A stretch of 64,000 nucleotides of DNA, from NCBI RefSeq assembly GCF_003054265.1, contig NZ_QBKT01000007.1, positions 186,001 to 250,000 of the forward strand, written 5' to 3'. Within the stretch, counting starts at the first letter, position 1, and every line of letters begins with the position of its first letter. Position numbers and translations under genes: made by a program. The stretch is from Kordia periserrulae. Lineage in GTDB: Bacteria > Bacteroidota > Bacteroidia > Flavobacteriales > Flavobacteriaceae. The notes under the pieces are model-generated. The model searched no databases and was not told the DNA's origin. It worked only from the letters and a program-made list of their open reading frames with translations. Below are positions 19,781-51,872 of this stretch, piece after piece.

Positions 19781-22450
19781 TCACTTAGGTTTGGGTCGTT
19801 TTTTCTTTAACGAATTAAATCGCCAATCAAACGTAAGCATAAAGAAACGTTGTAATACGAGACTTTGCGTGTTTTGAATAAAGTCGGTTGTTACAATGCG
19901 TCGCGTGTTTATATTTTGATCGAGTACATCGTACATTCGGAGTGATAGACTAGCAGTATCGTCCCAAAAACTATAGGAAATTCCACTATTCCACGACCAA
20001 GCATACTTGTCAAAATCGCCTGAAACGTTCGGATTATAAATATAGCGCACTCTATTTTCCCAATGCAATCGCTCAAAAATTTGTATTTCTGAAAACAGAT
20101 TCAACTCATGCATGGTGATTTCTTCATCGTTAAATCCATCAAGTGAATACCGTGTTTGGGAAAAATTTAAATTGTAGTCTGCGTTGATGTCCAATCGCTG
20201 TTTCCACTCAAAATCTACACCAAGAGACGGCGTGTACATAGTGGTTTTTACATCGTACCGAATGTCGTTGTTAAAATTGATGCGTTTGCTATGATTTATC
20301 GCACCGTTCAAGCGTATTCGCATGGCGCTTGATGTATTCAATTGTAACTGTTTGTACACATCTACATAGCCGTAATAATTGTAATTTCCATCAATGTTCA
20401 CAAAGGTTGTTTCGCGTACCAAATCGTCATCAATCGTATATCTGGACACGACGCGATTGTTGTCTAACGTCACTTTCAATTTTCCAAAAAGTCCATATCC
20501 TTTTTTAAAATTATTTGTTCGGTAATCTACATGAAACGCATAGCGATTTTGCGGTTGTAAGTTTGGGTTTCCTCGTACAATATTCAACGGATCGGTAACA
20601 TCGGTAAAGGTTTGCAATTGTGATAACGACGGAATCATGTTGCTTAATTGCGCGCCAGCATTCAATACCGAGCGTCGATTGACGCGATAGCGAATTCCTC
20701 CCGAATAGGTAAAAATATCAAAGCTGCGTTTTATATTGAGTTCGGGGCGCAATTGATCTTCGTTTTCTAAGGTTCTAAACGTATAATCAACGTTGAAAAA
20801 AGCATTTATTTTTTTGTTTCTATAGTTAAATTTCACACTCGGAACAGATGCTATATTTCGATTGGTAAAGTCCGAACTCAACACATCGTTAAAATCGCTA
20901 AACGCTTGCTGATTCGTATTAAAGTCAAAAACTGCTTTATCACTTTCGTCTTTTTGAGAGAAGTAATTGTAATTGACATCCATAAAGATTTTTTTCTTAT
21001 AAATGGGGACTCTAAACGTAATTCCCGCATCAAAACTAGCATTCATATCGTCCGTATCGGTAAACTGATTCCGCAGAATATCACTTGAAGTTGAATTGAG
21101 AAACAACAATTCAGACGCGACAAAGGCATCACTGTCAAAGTTTCGTAAATCTTGATTCAGCGTAAGCTTGATAAAAGCTCCTTGCTCACCTATTTTTTTG
21201 GTGAGATGTAGTGTGTTTCGAAATTCGGTTTGCGCAGCATTATCCGTAGAATTTACTGTTGAAGTGTTGATTAATTCATCAAACTCGTCAAAAGTTTCAG
21301 CACTGCTTTTGTAATTACGTTTACTGGGCAAACTGGCAAAACTTGATTGTAAATTCAAGTGCATGGTTTCTCCCAAAAGCGTTTGATATTCCAAATCCAT
21401 AGTATGACTTCGGTTTTCCGTAATAGAACGGTCGCGGAGATTTGAAAAGTACGGCGCTTCGGGGACAATGTATTCGGTAAATTGTGTTTTTTGGTTTTCG
21501 AGTTCCGCATCACTATACATGTAATTTACCGATAATGAACTGTATTTCCCTAAGTCTTCATTGTAAGAAGCTCCTATTTTTTGAATTGTTCGAATGCCTT
21601 TTGTGCTAAAACCTATATTGGGCGCATTGATATTGTTGCCTGTAGCTATAAAACTGAGGTTTCTACTGTTGTTAAAGCGATTGTAATTTCCTGTCAATTG
21701 ATAACGGTCGTTATCACCTACTCCTGTGGAAAGTTTCCCAAAAGCGCCTTTGTTGTTTTCTTCTTTGATGACCAAATTGATGGTTTTGGCATCGCCGCTT
21801 GCCTGCTCTCCTGTAAAAATTTCAGAATTGGTTTTGGAGTCGGTAATTTGTAATTTTTCAATGATTTCTTTGGTCAAATTTTGCGTTGCCATTGTAAGAT
21901 CGTTGGGGAAAAAAGGACGTCCGTTGACCAATATTTTATTTACGCGAACACCGTTGACCGTGATATTTCCGTCAAAATCAACTTGAACGCCTGGTAGTTT
22001 TTTGATAAAATCTTCCACACTGGCATTTCGTTTGGTTTTGAATGATTTTGGATCAAATTCGAGTGTATCTTGCTTGATGGTCACAGGCGAAGTAGATTCA
22101 ATCATCACCGCATCGAGCATGGAACTATTTTCTAAGTAAATAGGTTTTAAAGTAGTTTTGGATTGAAGCGTAATTTTTTTGGAAAAGGTTTTACTTCCTA
22201 CATACGATACAAAAAGCGTGGCTTCTTTGTAGGCTGTGTTTCCGCTTAGTGTAAATTCGCCTTTACGATTGGACGTCGTGTATTTTATCAGCGAATTGTC
22301 TTTGTTGTTTTGTAGATATATCGTGGCAGATTCCAACGGAATGCTATCCATCACGCCGCTGACTGCACCTTTTATTTCAAAGTCAGTGCTTTGCGCCATG
22401 GCTGTAGTAGCAAATAGCAAAAAGTATACTATGTACATACTTTTTTTCAT
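19781..22450 (-). CDS. Outer-membrane beta-barrel protein (OMP_b-brl_3 / TonB-receptor-like)
   Basis: This 889-residue protein has a signal peptide (about 1-19) and a carboxypeptidase-regulatory-like domain (about 22-110). A plug-like segment follows with VEDFIKKLPGVQVDFDGNI and ILVNGRPFF (about 143-182), then a long barrel rich in aromatic strands. This arrangement is that of the outer-membrane beta-barrel family common in Bacteroidota, related to but distinct from SusC receptors. The C-terminus ends in basic residues (KKKRPKPK), not the usual aromatic residue. No substrate can be assigned; neighbouring genes face away or are unrelated. Confidence 0.85.
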   Translation of the reverse strand: MKKSMYIVYFLLFATTAMAQSTDFEIKGAVSGVMDSIPLESATIYLQNNKDNSLIKYTTSNRKGEFTLSGNTAYKEATLFVSYVGSKTFSKKITLQSKTTLKPIYLENSSMLDAVMIESTSPVTIKQDTLEFDPKSFKTKRNASVEDFIKKLPGVQVDFDGNITVNGVRVNKILVNGRPFFPNDLTMATQNLTKEIIEKLQITDSKTNSEIFTGEQASGDAKTINLVIKEENNKGAFGKLSTGVGDNDRYQLTGNYNRFNNSRNLSFIATGNNINAPNIGFSTKGIRTIQKIGASYNEDLGKYSSLSVNYMYSDAELENQKTQFTEYIVPEAPYFSNLRDRSITENRSHTMDLEYQTLLGETMHLNLQSSFASLPSKRNYKSSAETFDEFDELINTSTVNSTDNAAQTEFRNTLHLTKKIGEQGAFIKLTLNQDLRNFDSDAFVASELLFLNSTSSDILRNQFTDTDDMNASFDAGITFRVPIYKKKIFMDVNYNYFSQKDESDKAVFDFNTNQQAFSDFNDVLSSDFTNRNIASVPSVKFNYRNKKINAFFNVDYTFRTLENEDQLRPELNIKRSFDIFTYSGGIRYRVNRRSVLNAGAQLSNMIPSLSQLQTFTDVTDPLNIVRGNPNLQPQNRYAFHVDYRTNNFKKGYGLFGKLKVTLDNNRVVSRYTIDDDLVRETTFVNIDGNYNYYGYVDVYKQLQLNTSSAMRIRLNGAINHSKRINFNNDIRYDVKTTMYTPSLGVDFEWKQRLDINADYNLNFSQTRYSLDGFNDEEITMHELNLFSEIQIFERLHWENRVRYIYNPNVSGDFDKYAWSWNSGISYSFWDDTASLSLRMYDVLDQNINTRRIVTTDFIQNTQSLVLQRFFMLTFDWRFNSLKKKRPKPK

Positions 22451-22634: not shown

Positions 22635-23618
22635 TTAAGCTTCCAACGGTACACTTTGTGAAATGGTCGTTTTAGTTTTTGGTTTGGAAAAGGTAAATCC
22701 TGTTACCAACTGTTTTAAATCTATTGGTTTGTCGATGTAAAATGCGGTGATATTCCAAAACATCATAAAGGCTGCAAAGAAGTATAGCTCTAACAAAACT
22801 CCGATACCAATGTGCATGAGCAATGTTCCCATTAACCAAAATTTTCTAGTTTTTTTGCTCCAGATAAAAACAGGATAGAGAATTTCAATCGCTAAAACGC
22901 CCCAACCTAATACAATGAGTATGTATGAGTTTTCGGCAAGCCAAGTAAAGTCAAAATTGAAAACATTGTTGGCGCTCCATAAGTTGATTGATTTCCACAT
23001 GGCTTCACCATTCCACCATGTAATTCCTGTCGCTTTGGAGATTCCTGCAAAGAAATATACCAAGCATACATTGATTTGTAATAAGCGTTTGAACAGCGTT
23101 GCGTTTAAGTTTTTTCGGCTTCTTTTTTTGAAAATAATATTGTCAACAGATAGATAGTATCCTGAAGGAAAGATAACTAAGTAGAATAATGACGTTACCA
23201 CAAATCCGTCAATTCCGTAAATATAAGTTCCTGCGTAAATAGATTTGTACAGAATAAGTGTTGTCAGCGCTGAAAATCGTGTGCAAAATCCAATCATCAA
23301 AGCAATTACCGATAGTATAAATACTGTGAGAAGACTTGTAATTGTAATACTTTCTGGTATTCCGTAGCCTTCAAAAAAGGTAATAATTTGCGTGAAAGAA
23401 ACCATTTCTTCTGGGAGTATAAATTCTCGAATATCGTACGGTATAATGCCATATTTCCCAAATAGTTTCGTAAAATCAAGAATAATACTCAACAGATGAA
23501 TTAGGATAAAAACACTCGTTCCTATTCTGAAAAAAGCGATAAATGTGCCTTTGGTATTGTCTTCTTGAAAGAAAAACGATTGTATTTTTGATGCGATGGT
23601 TTTGCGTGAGATGTTCAT
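22635..23618 (-). CDS. HTTM-domain membrane protein (vitamin K carboxylase-like)
   Basis: This 327-residue protein has about seven to eight membrane segments. It matches the HTTM fold shared with vitamin K-dependent gamma-glutamyl carboxylases. The segment VYFFAGISKATGITWWNGEAM (about 187-207) lines up with the carboxylase segment that holds the catalytic lysine, putting K195 at that place; a His (269) in a later helix is also kept. The large lumenal domain of animal carboxylases is absent. It is the last gene of a three-gene minus-strand operon with 16-21 bp gaps. Enzyme activity is not shown by the sequence; many HTTM proteins are uncharacterised. Confidence 0.8.
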   Translation of the reverse strand: MNISRKTIASKIQSFFFQEDNTKGTFIAFFRIGTSVFILIHLLSIILDFTKLFGKYGIIPYDIREFILPEEMVSFTQIITFFEGYGIPESITITSLLTVFILSVIALMIGFCTRFSALTTLILYKSIYAGTYIYGIDGFVVTSLFYLVIFPSGYYLSVDNIIFKKRSRKNLNATLFKRLLQINVCLVYFFAGISKATGITWWNGEAMWKSINLWSANNVFNFDFTWLAENSYILIVLGWGVLAIEILYPVFIWSKKTRKFWLMGTLLMHIGIGVLLELYFFAAFMMFWNITAFYIDKPIDLKQLVTGFTFSKPKTKTTISQSVPLEA

Positions 23619-23639: not shown

Positions 23640-24221
23640 TTAAAATCGGAATGTATAACGTTCTAACAGTACTAGCTTTTCTGTTTTTCCTTCCAGCGTT
23701 TGTGTAATGGTTGCGGGTTGGTGAATGTAAATTTCAGAAACAACTTTGTATCCTGTGTTGTACGACGCTTTGATATTTTCTGCTATTTGATGCATCATTA
23801 CTTCAAAATAATCATCAAATAATTCGTTTGGCTCTTCCATCATAATTTTGTCCATCATAGGAAACGTACAGAGGTTAAAGCGTACTTTGCTTTCTTTTTG
23901 TTCTAAGCTTGTTGGAGTTTGATGCTCTCCGAGTACTTTTCCGTCACAGTCCAATACTGTAAACGCTAGTACAAATTCGCTTCCTACATTTGGTGAGAAG
24001 AAACCATAACTTGTGTCGGTTCCTGTGTAATTGGCATAGGTTTTAAAAATAGGGCTGCTACGTAAAGCAGACCCTATTTTTACATCCTTTTCTACCTGTG
24101 TGTCTTTGTCAGACATCATTTCGTAGTCGCCCAGCAAACCTTCAACATTGATGGATATGATGCTGAACAATTGAATTGAAACTAATGTGACGCACACAAT
24201 GGTATTTTTGAACGGATTCAT
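23640..24221 (-). CDS. Unknown protein paired with the HTTM gene
   Basis: I do not recognise a named family in this 193-residue protein. The N-terminus has one hydrophobic segment (about 8-27) that could be a signal anchor, and the rest is polar, with NYTGTDTSYGFFSPNVGSE near residues 65-83 and a likely beta-rich C-terminal half ending in ERYTFRF. It lies 21 bp before the HTTM gene and 19 bp after the 126-residue gene, so the three are likely one transcript. A periplasm-facing partner of the HTTM protein is plausible but only from position. Confidence 0.6.
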   Translation of the reverse strand: MNPFKNTIVCVTLVSIQLFSIISINVEGLLGDYEMMSDKDTQVEKDVKIGSALRSSPIFKTYANYTGTDTSYGFFSPNVGSEFVLAFTVLDCDGKVLGEHQTPTSLEQKESKVRFNLCTFPMMDKIMMEEPNELFDDYFEVMMHQIAENIKASYNTGYKVVSEIYIHQPATITQTLEGKTEKLVLLERYTFRF

Positions 24222-24240: not shown

Positions 24241-24621
24241 TTATTGATTCATGTATCTGTGCATCATTTCGTCCAATTCTCCTCTAAACTCTTGAGCAAT
24301 TTGAACATCTTCTGCATTCATAACATCATGCGCACTTGATCCGATAAATGTTTTTTGTGTAAACTTATTGTCATCATGTGTTTTGTTACGGAAAATCCAA
24401 ATTCCACGAGCAGCAGTTTCTTCGTTAATTTCTCCACTAAAGCTAATACGCTCGGTCATTTCATCAATTCTAAATAAGTCTTGGTCTTCTAATGCTACAT
24501 TTTCTAAAAGATAGTTTCCATCTGCTAATTGTCTTACAGAACCTTCTTGTGTGGTTGTTGTAAAAGAAAATAACATTAAGCTTAACATTGCTAGTACTGG
24601 TAAAAAGATTTTTGTTTTCAT
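24241..24621 (-). CDS. Small secreted protein, first gene of the HTTM operon
   Basis: This 126-residue protein has a clear signal peptide (about 1-24, hydrophobic core LPVLAMLSLMLFSF). The mature part is acidic and mixed in character, with no Cys and no motif I recognise. Its start is the leftward end of a 431-bp divergent gap that contains two direct repeats of a 15-bp operator-like sequence, so it may share control with the TPR-AraC regulator. Function unknown. Confidence 0.6.
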   Translation of the reverse strand: MKTKIFLPVLAMLSLMLFSFTTTTQEGSVRQLADGNYLLENVALEDQDLFRIDEMTERISFSGEINEETAARGIWIFRNKTHDDNKFTQKTFIGSSAHDVMNAEDVQIAQEFRGELDEMMHRYMNQ

Positions 24622-24788
24622 AATTAAAGATTTAAATAGTTATTATTTGTTTTAAAATATTTGATTTGATACTTACTCTTTTTTAAAATTTAAAGGCTTT
24701 TCAGTTTCCGCCTATATGATTGTTGCAACAGAATCACAGTGCTAAATAATGACTTTATTTGCTGCAAATCAAGTAGTTAGTAATGACG

Positions 24789-24825
24789 TTTATAAATATC
24801 ATGCAACAGATTTATAAATATCATG
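24789..24825. promoter_or_regulatory. Two direct operator-like repeats, 22 bp apart
   Basis: TTTATAAATATCATG occurs at 24789-24803 and again at 24811-24825. The 22-bp spacing is two helix turns, as is usual for paired AraC-type half-sites. The same half-site, with C in place of the last T, forms a perfect palindrome at 26901-26926. They lie 228 bp before the TPR-AraC regulator and 168 bp before the divergent HTTM operon. The rest of the 24622-25052 gap shows no gene. Confidence 0.65.
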
Positions 24826-25052
24826 TGCCCTTTTTTTGTGGAAAGTCTTGTGAGCACTTGCGTCAGCAATAGTGATTGCTTTTTTCGTGGAAAAGAGCAG
24901 TTTTGGGAGTGATAAAGAACTATACTCTTTGAATATTTTGAATTTTCGGATGGTTTTATGCGTTTTTACTTTTAAATTTGATAGATTTTAGTGTGTAAAC
25001 CTTCGTTTTTTATGCACAAAAAGTCCAACTAAAGAAAAAACCTGAAGAAAAC

Positions 25053-26864
25053 GTGAAAAAACCGACCTACTTACCAACCTTTTTTAGGGCTATTCAGCAT
25101 GCTTTTTTGTGGAAAAAGATGTGTTTTGCACAATTTTGTGTCATTTTATTGTTGTTTTTCTATACTTCTTCTGCATTTTCACAGCTGAGTTCTGGCTCGT
25201 TTGAAGACATGAAATCGGAGTTTTATGCTTCTAAAAATCCTGAAAAAGCGTTGGAAATTGCAACAAACTATCTTGCGAAAGCAAAAAAAGCCAATGATAT
25301 TGCCGAAATTAGTACAGCTTATGAGCTATTCGTCAATCATTTTAGTCACACGCCAACTGCTATTTCTTATACAGATAGCATCATTTTATTGACCAAAAAC
25401 AGCAAACTGGAAAATTATCCTGCCAAAGGATATTTATTAAAAGGAATACAATTATACTATCAGTCCAAATACAACGACGCGTTGACCAATTTTGCTTTGG
25501 CGAATAATTTGGCACTGGAAACCAACAATATTGCACAACAAATTTCAATCAAACATTATATTGGATTGCTTAAAAATGTGAGCAAAGAGCCCGAAGAACG
25601 CGCAGAAGCCTTGCGGATTTTTGAGGAGAATATTGAATTTATTCGAAAGAATGCCTACGAAAAGAAAGACTCTGAGCAATATTTAAAATCTTTATTGGCG
25701 TTGGCAGACTCATATAATAAAAACAGAGTGCTCGATTCTGCCGAAGTAGTACACCAACGCGGTATCAAAGCCAGTTTGCAACATCACAATCAATATTTGT
25801 ATCCTTTCTTTTTAACCTCTTACGGCGTAATGTCGTATTACAAAGAAAACTACACGCCTGCGATTGATAGTTTATTGAAAGCTACACGATTTTTGTCGAA
25901 CAATGAAAAAGCGTTGTGTTCTAACTATTTATATGTGTACCGATGTTTAAAAGCGCAGAAAAAAAATAAAGAAGGTATTGCGTATTTAGTAAAGGTAGAT
26001 TCTATTTATGAGCAAAAACCCAAAGTTATTTTTCAGGCAAAAGAAGCCTACGAGTTTTTAAATACGGAATATAAAGCGTCTAATGATGCGGAAGCGCGAC
26101 TTGCCACGATTGAAAAATTGTTAGCGGTAGATGATATTATAACCGAACAATATCAAAATTTGGGGAAAGAGATTGTTCAGAAATACGAAACTCCTTTGAT
26201 GATTTCTGAAAAAGAAGAATTGCTCAGTGAAAAAGAAGCACTCATCAATCAATTGCAAGATGAAAACTTTTTATCGCAAAGAGTCGTCACTATATTGATT
26301 ATTGTTTCCATCATTTTACTGGCTTTTATTGTGTACTTTTCTAGAAGAAATAGAGTGTACAAAAGGCGTTTTGCGACGTTGATGGAAGATTATGAGCAGA
26401 AAAAAATTCAAAAAGAAAAGGAAAAAACCGATTCCAAAGAAGCTGCTATAGATGAAAAAATCAAACTAGCTCCTTCGCAAGAAGAATCTATTGGATTGCC
26501 GCAAGATATTGTAGATGGCATTTTAGAAAAGTTAGAAAAGTTTGAAGACACACATCGCTTCACTAAGAAAAATTATACACTTACCAAACTGGCAAAAGAA
26601 TTAGATACCAACAGTACGTATCTCTCAAAAATCATCAATGTGACCAAAGGAATGAACTTTGCGAAGTATATGAATGAGATACGAATTGATTATGCCATCA
26701 CGCGATTAAAAGAAGATAAACGTTTCCGATCGTACACCATTAAGGCCATCGCCCAAGAGGTTGGATTCAACAATGCACAGTCATTTTCCATCGCTTTTCA
26801 TAAAAAAACAGGCATAAATCCGTCGTACTTCTTAAAACAGCTTGAAAATCAAAAAATAGACTAA
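25053..26864 (+). CDS. Membrane-anchored TPR-AraC transcriptional regulator
   Basis: This 603-residue one-component regulator has an N-terminal signal or anchor segment (to about residue 44). A helical TPR-like region covers about 50-400 and would lie in the periplasm. A membrane helix (about 407-428, VVTILIIVSIILLAFIVYF) and a charged linker follow. A cytoplasmic AraC-type double helix-turn-helix fills about 500-600 (KLAKELDTNSTYLSKII; IAQEVGFNNAQSFSIAFHKKTG). The start is GTG at 25053; an ATG at 25119 would leave a shorter signal, but the longer form aligns better with the paralog at 48217. Operator-like repeats lie on both sides, so it probably controls itself and the downstream peptide genes. 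Confidence 0.85.
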   Translation: MKKPTYLPTFFRAIQHAFLWKKMCFAQFCVILLLFFYTSSAFSQLSSGSFEDMKSEFYASKNPEKALEIATNYLAKAKKANDIAEISTAYELFVNHFSHTPTAISYTDSIILLTKNSKLENYPAKGYLLKGIQLYYQSKYNDALTNFALANNLALETNNIAQQISIKHYIGLLKNVSKEPEERAEALRIFEENIEFIRKNAYEKKDSEQYLKSLLALADSYNKNRVLDSAEVVHQRGIKASLQHHNQYLYPFFLTSYGVMSYYKENYTPAIDSLLKATRFLSNNEKALCSNYLYVYRCLKAQKKNKEGIAYLVKVDSIYEQKPKVIFQAKEAYEFLNTEYKASNDAEARLATIEKLLAVDDIITEQYQNLGKEIVQKYETPLMISEKEELLSEKEALINQLQDENFLSQRVVTILIIVSIILLAFIVYFSRRNRVYKRRFATLMEDYEQKKIQKEKEKTDSKEAAIDEKIKLAPSQEESIGLPQDIVDGILEKLEKFEDTHRFTKKNYTLTKLAKELDTNSTYLSKIINVTKGMNFAKYMNEIRIDYAITRLKEDKRFRSYTIKAIAQEVGFNNAQSFSIAFHKKTGINPSYFLKQLENQKID

Positions 26865-26900
26865 ACTTATTGATTGTCAGGTTTTTACAAAACAGTTTTT

Positions 26901-26926
26901 ATCGTGATATTTATAAATATCACGAT
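26901..26926. promoter_or_regulatory. Perfect 26-bp palindrome before the leader-peptide gene
   Basis: The half ATCGTGATATTTA is followed directly by its exact complement, TAAATATCACGAT. The core matches the two direct repeats at 24789 and 24811. It lies 36 bp after the TPR-AraC gene and 65 bp before the peptide start, and a TATGTTTTG -7-like box follows near 26945, so it would sit just upstream of the promoter. A terminator is less likely because there is no T-run. Confidence 0.7.
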
Positions 26927-26991
26927 ACTTCATTATAATAGGTCTATGTTTTGCCATAATTTAGCACCGTAACCAGAAAACAAAATTAACC

Positions 26992-27262: not shown

Positions 27263-29437
27263 ATGAAATCACAGTTTATATATTATTTTTTATCCTTACT
27301 ATGGCTCACGCAATGTATGACTAACAGCGAACATGCGAATATAGCCAAACAACAACCTATACAAAACACGTATTTTTCAACCACTGTTGAAGATCCGTAT
27401 CAATATTTAGAAAACCTAAAAGATACTGCCGTACTTTCTTGGTTGAAAACACAAGATGCTTATACCAAAGAAACACTCGAACAAATTTCAGGGCGCCAAC
27501 AACTGTTGAAAAAAATTGAACAGTATGACAAAATGCGTGCTGATGCTGTTTTTGATGTGAAAGTACTTTCGTCAGATGCGTATTATTATCTAAAATATGC
27601 AGAAAATCATGAAGCCAATGTGTTGTATTTTAAAAAAGGAATTGACGGCGAAGAAACTGCCATTTTCAATTCTCAAAATTATAAATCGCACACCAAAAAT
27701 ACGTATATTATCAATTATTTTCAGCCAAGCTGGGACGGTCAAAAAATAGCGATTGGCTTTACCAAAAATGACGAAGAGTTTTCAGAAGTGGTCATATATG
27801 ATGTGCCTTCCAAAACGTTTCACAAAGAAGTGATTGACCATTGCTGGCCTTCAGAATTGGGCGGAATTCATTGGTTGGCTGACAATTCCGGATTTACCTA
27901 TTTGCACATTCCAGACATTGATACGACTTCTTCCAATTATATTTTAGATACTGCTACCGTTTTGTATCGTTTAGGAAGCAATCCGAAAGATTTGCACATT
28001 CTTTTTTCCCGAAAAACACATCCTGAACTTGACTTAAACCCTGAAGATTTCCCGATTGTCAATATTTTTGGACAATACCCAAAGTATATGTTTGGACGTG
28101 TTGGCGGCATTGGTTTTAAAGATTATTACTATGCGCCTATCAGCGAAATGGGAAAGAAAAAAGTAACCTGGAAACCGCTTTTTAAAAAGAAGCACAAGGT
28201 AGAAAAGTTTCTGCCCTATCAAGACGATATTTATTTTTTAAGTGCGCAAAAAGCTTCCAATTTTGGCATTTATAAAACTTCGTTGAGCAGCTTGAATTTT
28301 GACGCACCTACAGAAGTAATTCCCGCGTATAGCGATAAAATTTTAAACGATTTTACCATTACCTCCAACGGATTGTTTTTTACTACTACTAAAAACGGCG
28401 TGTTGGCAAATTTGTATCAGTTACGCGATAATACCATTGAAAACATCATTTTACCCAAAGCTTCGGGCAGTATTTCCTTGTCAAGCATCGGAACCCAATT
28501 TCCTGATTTGTGGATAGAAACGGAAGGCTGGACAAGTCACAGACACAGATATCGATATGAAGCCGAAAAGAGCCAGTTTACGACCGAAAATGTGACTCCT
28601 GTAGTCAATTATCCAGAATTGCAAGATGTCGTCGTAGAAGAGATAGAAATCACTTCTCACGATGGTGTACAAGTGCCGCTCTCTATCATTTACAAGAAAG
28701 GAATGCTGAAAAATGGCAAGAATCGCATGTTGTTGAATGGCTATGGTTGTTATAATTGGATTAATGCGCCAATGCTGTATCCGTATTTGTTATACTGGAT
28801 TGGCGAAGGCGGTATGTATGCTGTAGCGCATGTTCGTGGCGGTGGCGAAAAAGGAGAACAGTGGCACCAAGCGGGTTATAAAACGACCAAACCAAATTCG
28901 TGGAAAGATTTTATTGCCTGTACCGAATTTTTGATTGATGAAGGCTATACGTCACCAGAAAAGTTTGCTGTTTGGGGCGGAAGTGCTGGTGGAATTACCA
29001 TTGGACGCGCCATTACCGAACGCCCAGATTTGTATGCTGCTGTGGTTATTAGAGTTGGTTTGTTGAATACACTACGCTCTGAAATTGCACCTAACGGACA
29101 GAATAATGTAAAAGAATTTGGGACCGTAAAAGATTCGCTAGGATTTGAAGCGTTATATGCTATGGACGCGTATCATCATATTGAGGAGGATGTAGCATAT
29201 CCTGCTGTATTTTTGACTTCGGGTATTAATGATTCGAGAGTCGCGGCATGGCAACCTTCGAAGTTTGCCGCACGTATGCAAGCAGCTACAAGTGCTGATG
29301 ACCCAATTTTATTGTCTGTGAATTTTTCCGAAGGTCATGGTTTTGATAGAACACAGAAAAGCAAACGTGAAGAACTCGCCAATATCATTTCTTTTGCCTT
29401 GTGGCAGACAGGTAGTCGGAAGTTTCAGGTGGAGTAG
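27263..29437 (+). CDS. Prolyl oligopeptidase (S9A) lipoprotein
   Basis: This 724-residue serine peptidase cuts short peptides after proline or a related residue. It has a lipoprotein signal (Cys about residue 18 in LTQC), so it is anchored outside the inner membrane. The beta-propeller covers about residues 70-440 and the alpha/beta-hydrolase domain the rest. The triad is S574 in GGSAGG, D657 in GINDSRV and H692 in GHGFD, all in family positions. Most bacterial S9A members with this layout are called prolyl endopeptidase. Its position after a leader-peptide gene suggests a possible role in peptide maturation, which is an inference. Confidence 0.9.
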   Translation: MKSQFIYYFLSLLWLTQCMTNSEHANIAKQQPIQNTYFSTTVEDPYQYLENLKDTAVLSWLKTQDAYTKETLEQISGRQQLLKKIEQYDKMRADAVFDVKVLSSDAYYYLKYAENHEANVLYFKKGIDGEETAIFNSQNYKSHTKNTYIINYFQPSWDGQKIAIGFTKNDEEFSEVVIYDVPSKTFHKEVIDHCWPSELGGIHWLADNSGFTYLHIPDIDTTSSNYILDTATVLYRLGSNPKDLHILFSRKTHPELDLNPEDFPIVNIFGQYPKYMFGRVGGIGFKDYYYAPISEMGKKKVTWKPLFKKKHKVEKFLPYQDDIYFLSAQKASNFGIYKTSLSSLNFDAPTEVIPAYSDKILNDFTITSNGLFFTTTKNGVLANLYQLRDNTIENIILPKASGSISLSSIGTQFPDLWIETEGWTSHRHRYRYEAEKSQFTTENVTPVVNYPELQDVVVEEIEITSHDGVQVPLSIIYKKGMLKNGKNRMLLNGYGCYNWINAPMLYPYLLYWIGEGGMYAVAHVRGGGEKGEQWHQAGYKTTKPNSWKDFIACTEFLIDEGYTSPEKFAVWGGSAGGITIGRAITERPDLYAAVVIRVGLLNTLRSEIAPNGQNNVKEFGTVKDSLGFEALYAMDAYHHIEEDVAYPAVFLTSGINDSRVAAWQPSKFAARMQAATSADDPILLSVNFSEGHGFDRTQKSKREELANIISFALWQTGSRKFQVE

Positions 29438-40232: not shown

Positions 40233-40262
40233 AAAGCCGCTTCAAAATTTTGAAGCGGCTTT
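40233..40262. terminator. Perfect 30-bp palindromic bidirectional terminator
   Basis: AAAGCCGCTTCAAAA is followed by its exact complement. A-runs and T-runs flank it, so it ends both the plus-strand peptide gene and the minus-strand TonB receptor gene at 40293. Confidence 0.85.
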
Positions 40263-50992: not shown

Positions 50993-51097
50993 ATACGCTT
51001 TTTTTGCGATTTCTTCAATTTTATAAATCTGAAAATACTTCGTTTGTTTCCAGCAAAACCGCTACTTACCTTTGATTTGTTCTTGATCGAGACAGGT

Positions 51098-51128
51098 GGC
51101 ATCCGAAAAACCATAATAGAGTAGGAAC
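51098..51128 (+). repeat. Direct repeat upstream of the DUF4214 gene
   Basis: GGCATCCGAAAA followed by ATAGAGTAGGAA in nearly the same spacing recurs at 51790-51817, after the gene. This copy lies 24 bp before the ATG and may be promoter or leader sequence. Confidence 0.6.
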
Positions 51129-51757: not shown

Positions 51758-51789
51758 AAGCGCGTCATCATCATCAAAAAACAAAAAGC

Positions 51790-51872
51790 GGCATCCGAAA
51801 AGCGTATAGAGTAGGAAAAACAAAGATTGAATGATTGTTAAAGACTGTCCGTGTGTGGCAGTCTTTTTTTTG
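51790..51872 (+). repeat. Second direct repeat copy followed by a short terminator unit
   Basis: GGCATCCGAAAA and TATAGAGTAGGAA begin at 51790. About 35 bp further, AGACTGTC and GGCAGTCT (a wobble pair included) form a hairpin with a T-run ending near 51872. The unit could be a short independent transcript or the terminator of the DUF4214 gene. Confidence 0.5.

Follow-up and report, generated by a model that had tools for sequence, protein, structure and literature searches.

A palindromic DNA motif that lies on both sides of a gene for a TPR-AraC regulator in Kordia periserrulae is, in our judgement, likely the operator of the activator encoded between its copies. This activator would switch on a peptide gene and an S9 peptidase gene on one side and a divergent operon on the other, and it belongs to a large family of such regulators. 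We analysed a stretch of 64,000 nucleotides (the window), the features of which are collected in Table 1, together with related loci from Kordia and from the order to which it belongs.

The initial annotation had pointed to a 15-mer present twice upstream of the regulator gene with 22-bp spacing, and to a perfect 26-bp palindrome before the peptide gene. Both statements were borne out: TTTATAAATATCATG is exact at 24789-24803 and at 24811-24825, and ATCGTGATATTTATAAATATCACGAT (26901-26926) is a perfect palindrome, the full extent of which is 28 bp (26900-26927). The upstream pair can be described as a palindromic site TGACGTTTATAAATATCA followed, at a centre-to-centre distance of 22 bp, by a second one, ACAGATTTATAAATATCA, in which one arm is good. 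When up to three mismatches were allowed, TTTATAAATATCATG had 17 matches in the window vs 8.4 +/- 3.1 in 100 shuffles (maximum 15), an excess that is by itself only mildly unusual. The 28-bp palindrome is beyond chance, with an arm of 14 compared to a mean longest arm of 7.6 and a maximum of 13 in 100 Markov windows. A single longer palindrome (arm 15) is found elsewhere in the window, at 40233-40262. Without mismatches, the 18-bp core TGATATTTATAAATATCA has one copy in the window's 4.7-Mb genome, which is the present locus, and with up to three mismatches its genome-wide count was barely above that of the reversed control pattern (20 vs 18). Summed over 11 Kordia genomes, sites with up to two mismatches numbered 41 vs 15 for the control, with the control above the motif in G004 (5 vs 3) and equal to it in G007 (1 vs 1). 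One site with two mismatches (C4:497431) was discarded as a chance match inside an ORF labelled by eye as sulfatase-like.

The -7 element of Bacteroidota promoters has the consensus TAnnTTTG. In all 11 Kordia genomes the palindrome precedes the peptide gene, its 18-bp core deviating by 0-2 mismatches, and in all 11 its centre lies 43 bp upstream of the peptide promoter's -7 element, which is of the TAnnTTTR type; this agrees with the earlier remark that the palindrome sits just upstream of a likely promoter. At the divergent promoter, TTATTTAG, TTAATTAG or TTACTTTG is found 43 bp from the proximal site in 11/11 genomes; these proximal sites have 2-6 mismatches of 18 and are weak in several genomes, and the distal site is 64-65 bp from the divergent -7 element in the 10 genomes measured. 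Because the spacing to the -7 element is constant at both promoters in 11/11 genomes, we consider the motif to be real. The search of related genomes that had been proposed as a check has found the motif conserved with the regulator, in both flanks and at constant spacing, throughout the Kordia set. With centres at 43 or about 53 bp upstream of the -7 element, the sites are in an activator-like position. No -7 element was present at +43 from another perfect palindrome, at G009:C1:729356.

Since the distance is 43 bp on the divergent side and 158 bp on the regulator side, the upstream pair seems to be positioned for control of the divergent operon and not of the regulator's own promoter. Autoregulation through this pair is unsupported by spacing, with TAAATTTG as the only candidate element. 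The assignment of the paired site to the regulator gene in the initial annotation is right in that a second promoter beside the regulator would be served, but the geometry fits the divergent operon. AraC-protein sites are usually direct repeats or asymmetric. The comparison to AraC-type paired sites that had been drawn holds for the 22-bp tandem but not for the sites themselves, each of which is a palindrome and not a direct repeat.

The palindrome might also be read as a transcription terminator, or an mRNA hairpin, located where the regulator gene ends, since it begins 36 bases past the regulator's last base (26864) and a hairpin is possible. However, the palindrome is AT-rich and has no T run after it, copies of its sequence occur before the regulator gene and at unlinked promoters with fixed spacing, and some paralogue palindromes begin within the last codons of the regulator. 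Given the lack of a T run, the conserved promoter spacing and the copies elsewhere, we rejected this reading as very improbable.

Table 1. Features of the locus, in window coordinates.
Feature	Position	Strand	Remarks
OMP_b-brl_3 outer-membrane protein gene, possibly same operon (184-bp gap)	19781..22450	-	Pfam 4.7e-17
HTTM-domain membrane protein gene	22635..23618	-	Pfam HTTM 1.6e-10; divergent operon
Gene for 193-aa protein, no family match	23640..24221	-	Divergent operon
First divergent gene, 126-aa secreted-looking protein	24241..24621	-	Starts 128 bp after -7 element
DUF805b-like cis-regulatory RNA	24670..24714	-	5' leader of divergent operon; 29.3 bits, Rfam cut-off 35.6
Divergent-promoter -7 element TTATTTAG	24742..24749	-	43 bp from proximal operator centre
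Candidate proximal operator of divergent promoter, TGACGTTTATAAATATCA	24784..24801		-7 element lies 43 bp from the centre
Candidate distal operator, ACAGATTTATAAATATCA	24806..24823		One good arm; 22 bp further out, 65 bp from -7 element
Sole TAnnTTTG between upstream sites and regulator, TAAATTTG	24973..24980	+	158 bp from nearer operator centre
Regulator gene	25053..26864	+	N-terminal hydrophobic segment; TPR-like repeats ~45-405; TM-like helix ~409-430; HTH_18/AraC 513-595
Candidate peptide-promoter operator, 28-bp perfect palindrome	26900..26927		Centre 43 bp before -7 element
Peptide-promoter -7 element TAATTTAG	26957..26964	+	Equivalent position in 11 genomes: TAATTTAG, TACATTTA or TACTTTTA
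Gly-Gly leader peptide gene, 58 aa	26992..27168	+	MKMNKRNLGKLNLSKLKIAKVGDIHSLYGG + 28-aa core
Prolyl oligopeptidase (S9) gene, probable lipoprotein (by eye)	27263..29437	+	Pfam Peptidase_S9 4.1e-46, S9_N 1.8e-29

The regulator matched Pfam HTH_18 (2.3e-14, 53.9 bits vs a cut-off of 33.6), and no TPR model was matched in the Pfam search. Its AlphaFold2 model (pLDDT 82.9, pTM 0.58) shows helices, and Foldseek returned general TPR matches for this model, with eukaryotic LGN TPRs at the top. We rejected these matches as proof of peptide binding, as they reflect TPR folds in general. The earlier description of a membrane-anchored one-component regulator is consistent with the hydrophobic N-terminus, the TPR-like helices, the TM-like helix and the AraC-type HTH, with the hydrophobic segment, the TM-like helix and the membrane topology judged by eye. 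The start codon is GTG as annotated and may lie elsewhere. An orthologue with 64-92% identity is present in all 10 other Kordia genomes; the nearest named relative by regulator is Kordia sp. TARA_039_SRF (92% identical).

Behind the regulator, the peptide gene is found in 10/11 Kordia genomes, and the S9 gene adjoins the peptide gene in 9/11. The three genes are in order in G009, the peptide gene is displaced by ~1 kb in G008 and located on another contig in G006, where the palindrome still precedes it, and no S9 gene is present beside the peptide in G007. Peptide identity is 63-100% in eight genomes (own included) and 42-43% in the remaining three. Peptide P0002 had no match to an NCBIfam model even at E 10, and none of seven other peptides scored over an NCBIfam cut-off (best RiPP model NF038153, 17.7 of 22 bits); class I lanthipeptide and TIGR04149 RiPP precursor models likewise gave no match over the curated cut-off. 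There are five C39 hits in the window's genome, and the peptide may be exported by C39-type transporters.

The genes behind the constant divergent promoter differ among genomes, and in 9/11 of these the first ORF of at least 30 aa starts 96-130 bp after the -7 element. The first gene encodes the 126-aa secreted-looking protein in the window's own genome and in G010, with a weak DUF6520-like match at the N-terminus that is below cut-off (PF20130, E 0.0025), an OMP-like protein in G004, and a 65-66-aa secreted-looking protein in 1-3 copies in G008, G006 and G007. In G009, G002 and G001 the first genes are GG-leader precursors, followed by a grasp-with-spasm ATP-grasp (TIGR04192) and a SPASM protein (TIGR04193), which were over cut-off in G002 and G001 and recognized by eye in G009. 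A grasp-with-spasm ATP-grasp gene also lies further along from the divergent promoter in G004. No clear gene start was seen within 250 bp of this promoter in G003 and G005, where the first ORF of at least 75 aa lies ~1.4 kb away and encodes a protein related to the 126-aa one of the window.

In 8/11 genomes the divergent promoter is followed by a DUF805b-like leader, with no match in G003, G004 and G005. At the 10 other orthologous loci, 6 matches were over cut-off, 1 was below and 3 loci had none; with the unlinked loci L004 and L062 included (12 sources besides the window), these numbers were 7, 2 and 3. DUF805b was rejected as a general partner of the operator, which was seen by eye at 2/25 DUF805b matches of the own genome, and Rfam E-value matches to snoRNA and U4 were dismissed as chance. 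As for unlinked sites, L004 (own C9:77885) precedes a lipoprotein-like gene and has a poor -7 element (TTACTTCG) at +43 and a DUF805b leader over cut-off, and L070 (G008:C2:425974) precedes a GG-peptide array with TAGTTTAG at +43. Two further sites are less certain and were assigned by hand. At L062 (G005, lipoprotein-like gene), TAATTAGC is at +66, corresponding to +44 relative to a second, degenerate site; an alternative -7 candidate, TATTTAGC, is at +54. At L063 (G009, OMP-like gene) there is no -7 element at +43; TAAGTTTA is at +64, which is +42 from a second half-site.

By sequence similarity, the regulator belongs to a large family of paralogues. Among the matches listed, each Kordia genome has from 10 to at least 21 regulator matches at 1e-30, the orthologue included. 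From such listed matches we chose 80 paralogues in 7/11 Kordia genomes. Under a fixed rule, a lysine-rich leader peptide gene was found downstream of 68/80, a number that includes an apparent false hit (L110) and became 60/80 with an alternative regex, compared to 12/80 on the divergent side and 10/400 in shuffled DNA. Of these 68 peptide genes, 63 start 60-140 bp after the regulator, 55 have the GG, and 58 encode at least two Cys after residue 30. Four of the 12 paralogues that failed the rule (L139, L143, L167 and L183) show a GG-containing small ORF. A palindrome score of at least 8 was reached at 38/91 loci (80 paralogues plus 11 orthologues). The palindromes between regulator and peptide have a common shape, with TTTATAAA, TTCACGGAA or TTCATGAA as the centre, and arms specific to the paralogue group.

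Within the order, regulator matches at 1e-45 were spread over 8/91 genera, and 49/296 genomes had them when the own genome was included. A leader-type peptide adjoined the regulator at ~11 of the 36 non-Kordia loci inspected by eye. We screened 30 loci for palindromes (28 found in the search of the order, together with L028 and L030), and 15 had one, which in 7 cases was a gapped repeat. The spacing test covered the 8 others, and at 8/8 loci, from two other genera of the family, a -7 element was present at 43 or 52-54 bp, in seven cases as a perfect TAnnTTTG.

The gene that comes next encodes an S9 or S8 serine protease in 18 Pfam-confirmed cases beyond the window's own, seven of them outside Kordia. 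Pfam assigned 18 next genes of Kordia paralogues to S9_N (4), S8 (4) and other families (5), with 5 having no match. A further 10/10 genes were confirmed as S9_N (L030, L034, L036, L064 and L193) or S8 (L202, L208, L209, L214 and L215), which is not a rate since they had been picked by eye as protease-like. Three of these loci, L034, L036 and L064, belong to Kordia paralogues, and at L064 no peptide gene separates regulator and protease. Because two unrelated serine protease families share this slot, the cassette design may include a protease that acts on the peptide.

We then considered whether the operator variants follow the DNA-binding domain of the adjacent regulator. The Mantel and spacing tests used 32 of the 38 palindrome loci, or 26 with orthologues collapsed, after L109, L116, L141, L150, L153 and L163 had been set aside by hand as not operator-like. 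At 26 loci, operator distance was correlated with HTH distance (rank Mantel r 0.41, 0/2000; partial on TPR 0.42, 0/2000) and not with TPR distance (r 0.03, 653/2000), and a first run with 32 loci had given 0.37 (0/1000) for HTH and 0.06 (203/1000) for TPR. When the set was reduced to eight operator-family representatives, none of the values was significant (HTH-operator 0.14, 505/2000, partial 0.06, 803/2000; TPR-operator 0.14, 566/2000), and the HTH-operator signal therefore sits within and between related families. At the 32 loci, the half-site of the own operator family matched better upstream of the own regulator than those of other families did, with a mean mismatch of 2.25 vs 4.14, and this half-site preference was reached in 170/20000 permutations over the eight family representatives. 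With a threshold score of at least 5 of 6, -7 elements at 42-45 or 52-55 bp were present at 20/26 loci vs 2.7 +/- 1.5 (maximum 9) in 2000 shuffles of single bases, in bins chosen after an earlier spacing run on largely the same loci. The elements were concentrated at 43-44 and 52-55 bp, and the two spacing classes, 43 and 53 bp, are one helical turn apart, which is what helix-face-dependent activation predicts.

These data bear on the possibility that the palindrome is the operator of an unlinked dimeric regulator of the TetR, GntR or MarR type and is left unbound by the TPR-AraC protein. Perfect inverted repeats are indeed a more typical feature of sites for such dimers than of those for AraC proteins. 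On the other hand, paired sites lie beside the TPR-AraC gene in 11/11 genomes (proximal site) with the peptide behind it in 10/11, the operator variants track the adjacent HTH and not the TPR domain at 26 loci (not at the eight representatives), and paralogous regulators of two other genera have an equal layout. We therefore regard an unlinked regulator as improbable.

In the mechanism that we favor, with the TPR-AraC protein as the activator, this protein would have an inner-membrane anchor, an outward-facing TPR domain and a cytoplasmic AraC-type HTH. A regulator dimer would bind the CGTGATATTTATAAATATCACG-class palindrome, the centre of which, 43 bp upstream of the -7 element, would be an activator position. 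The bound regulator would switch on the genes for the GG-leader peptide and the S9 peptidase, and would also activate the species-variable divergent operon and a few unlinked genes. Predicted divergent targets are the DUF6520-like secreted protein with HTTM/OMP, tandem small secreted proteins, an OMP gene, and grasp-with-spasm GG precursors. Across the family, a peptide gene lies behind most of the regulators sampled; many of these regulators have an operator variant of their own, and for some of them a serine protease gene (S9/S8) comes next. Physical binding, dimerisation, activation, protease action on the peptide and topology are all elements that we infer.

What the regulator senses is a separate question. 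The peptide as its ligand is an attractive but unproven idea, suggested by adjacency, peptide diversity, the TPR fold and a weak TPR-core covariation. The latter was determined for 55 loci that passed the rule with GG, with orthologues collapsed and L110, L112 and L138 excluded by hand: the partial r was 0.12 (17/1000, corrected for HTH) for TPR-core, 0.16 (9/1000) for TPR-leader, 0.07 (84/1000) for HTH-core and 0.05 (186/1000) for HTH-leader. Covariation between peptide and TPR domain is thus weak, and the core follows the TPR domain no more closely than the leader, which the ligand idea does not predict. A regulator that senses an outside cue (nutrient, envelope stress or a rival) and controls the peptide as a bacteriocin or RiPP effector, and not as a signal, would fit at least as well, and we give this option a little less than an even chance. 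The peptides are variable and often Cys-rich, the divergent operon starts with grasp-with-spasm GG precursors in three species, and one unlinked target is a GG-peptide array in a setting where the own genome has C39 hits. Yet an effector would not require a peptide gene directly behind so many separate regulators that changes along with them, and core distance does weakly follow the TPR domain after HTH correction. The boldest version of the ligand idea is that of a large set of separate peptide channels in Kordia and its relatives, in which each membrane-anchored receptor would sense its own exported, protease-trimmed GG peptide and activate peptide, protease and exchangeable operons for natural products or secreted proteins via its own palindrome. 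We consider this doubtful; if true, Gram-negative bacteria would have a peptide-pheromone system of the one-component type, which would be a candidate for the Kordia algicida density signal.

Protease release by Kordia algicida is density dependent and triggered by its own filtrate, with no acyl-homoserine lactone detected (PMC3117869), and nutrient control has been stressed as well (PMC10565126). This process shares the genus with the window's cassette, and a connection to the locus is not established; the cassettes would be concrete candidates for the signal. Many BGCs have been noted in Kordia (PMC10734526). TPR genes were noted in Bacteroidales RiPP clusters, in an account of these genes that does not show the regulator-peptide arrangement (PMC10352776). 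In the open-licence literature, we found no description of a regulator-operator-peptide-protease cassette. The cassette family could represent a system of peptide signals, or of peptide weapons, that has so far gone unrecognised. With one family, many regulators per genome, and fixed-spacing operators at many of these, it may also offer a testable code that would allow regulator-DNA specificity to be read from sequence, and would tie silent peptide/RiPP operons to their switch.

Compared to known systems, the regulator resembles AraC/XylS activators in its C-terminal HTH_18, in sites just before the promoter and in the 22-bp tandem, and differs from these in that its sites are inverted repeats and that a TPR domain, set apart by a membrane helix and probably external, serves as the sensor. 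Unlike class I lanthipeptide leaders (NF038153), the peptides score below cut-off (best 17.7 of 22 bits); as in double-glycine leader/C39 (PCAT) systems, the GG ends a charged KLxLxKLKIAKL-type leader and the genome has C39 domains. RRNPP and Rgg-SHP receptors are cytoplasmic, those that bind DNA use another HTH class, and their peptides are matured by proteases. The cassette shares with these systems of Gram-positive bacteria (Rap, NprR, PlcR, PrgX; Rgg-SHP) a TPR sensor and an adjacent small-peptide gene, with NprR (5dbk) at rank 32 in the Foldseek search and several Rap entries lower, whereas the hydrophobic N-terminus, the TM-like helix (by eye) and the AraC-type HTH of the regulator set it apart from RRNPP receptors. 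Finally, as in peptide-pheromone systems, the peptide gene adjoins the candidate receptor gene, here in 68/80 paralogues.

The divergent promoter is kept where RiPP genes stand in for the secreted-protein operon that is transcribed away from the TPR-AraC regulator gene. At L055, L056 and L058, GG-leader precursors with many T, S and E residues and grasp-with-spasm RiPP genes replace this operon on the regulator's divergent side, and at L053 such RiPP-type genes are located further on. A paralogous regulator locus in G003, another Kordia genome, has no peptide gene between the site and the S9 peptidase gene. In G008, an array of GG-leader peptides lies downstream of an 18-bp core site without mismatches; three of the peptides are closely similar and Cys-rich.

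In 8 of the 11 Kordia genomes the divergent operon carries a DUF805b-like cis-regulatory RNA in its 5′ leader, despite changing genes downstream; besides the window copy, this RNA occurs at L020, L021 and L023 to L026, and also at L004, an unlinked promoter of the own genome. The own genome holds 25 DUF805b matches, 17 of which exceed the cut-off (35.6 bits), and several precede genes that by eye encode GG-leader peptides or lipoprotein-like proteins.

Coordinates of the features described
Feature	Location	Strand	Remarks
DUF805b-like cis-regulatory RNA	window 24670-24714	-	5′ leader, divergent operon; 29.3 bits, below cut-off
Perfect 30-bp palindrome AAAGCCGCTTCAAAATTTTGAAGCGGCTTT	window 40233-40262		terminator-like
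DUF805b RNA	window 51093-51127	+	41.1 bits, exceeds cut-off; converted coordinates
DUF805b RNA	window 51785-51817	+	36.3 bits, exceeds cut-off; converted coordinates
Paralogous regulator locus, G003	L064 1593-3017		site and S9 peptidase present
GG-leader peptide array, G008	L070 286-1404	-	downstream of core copy
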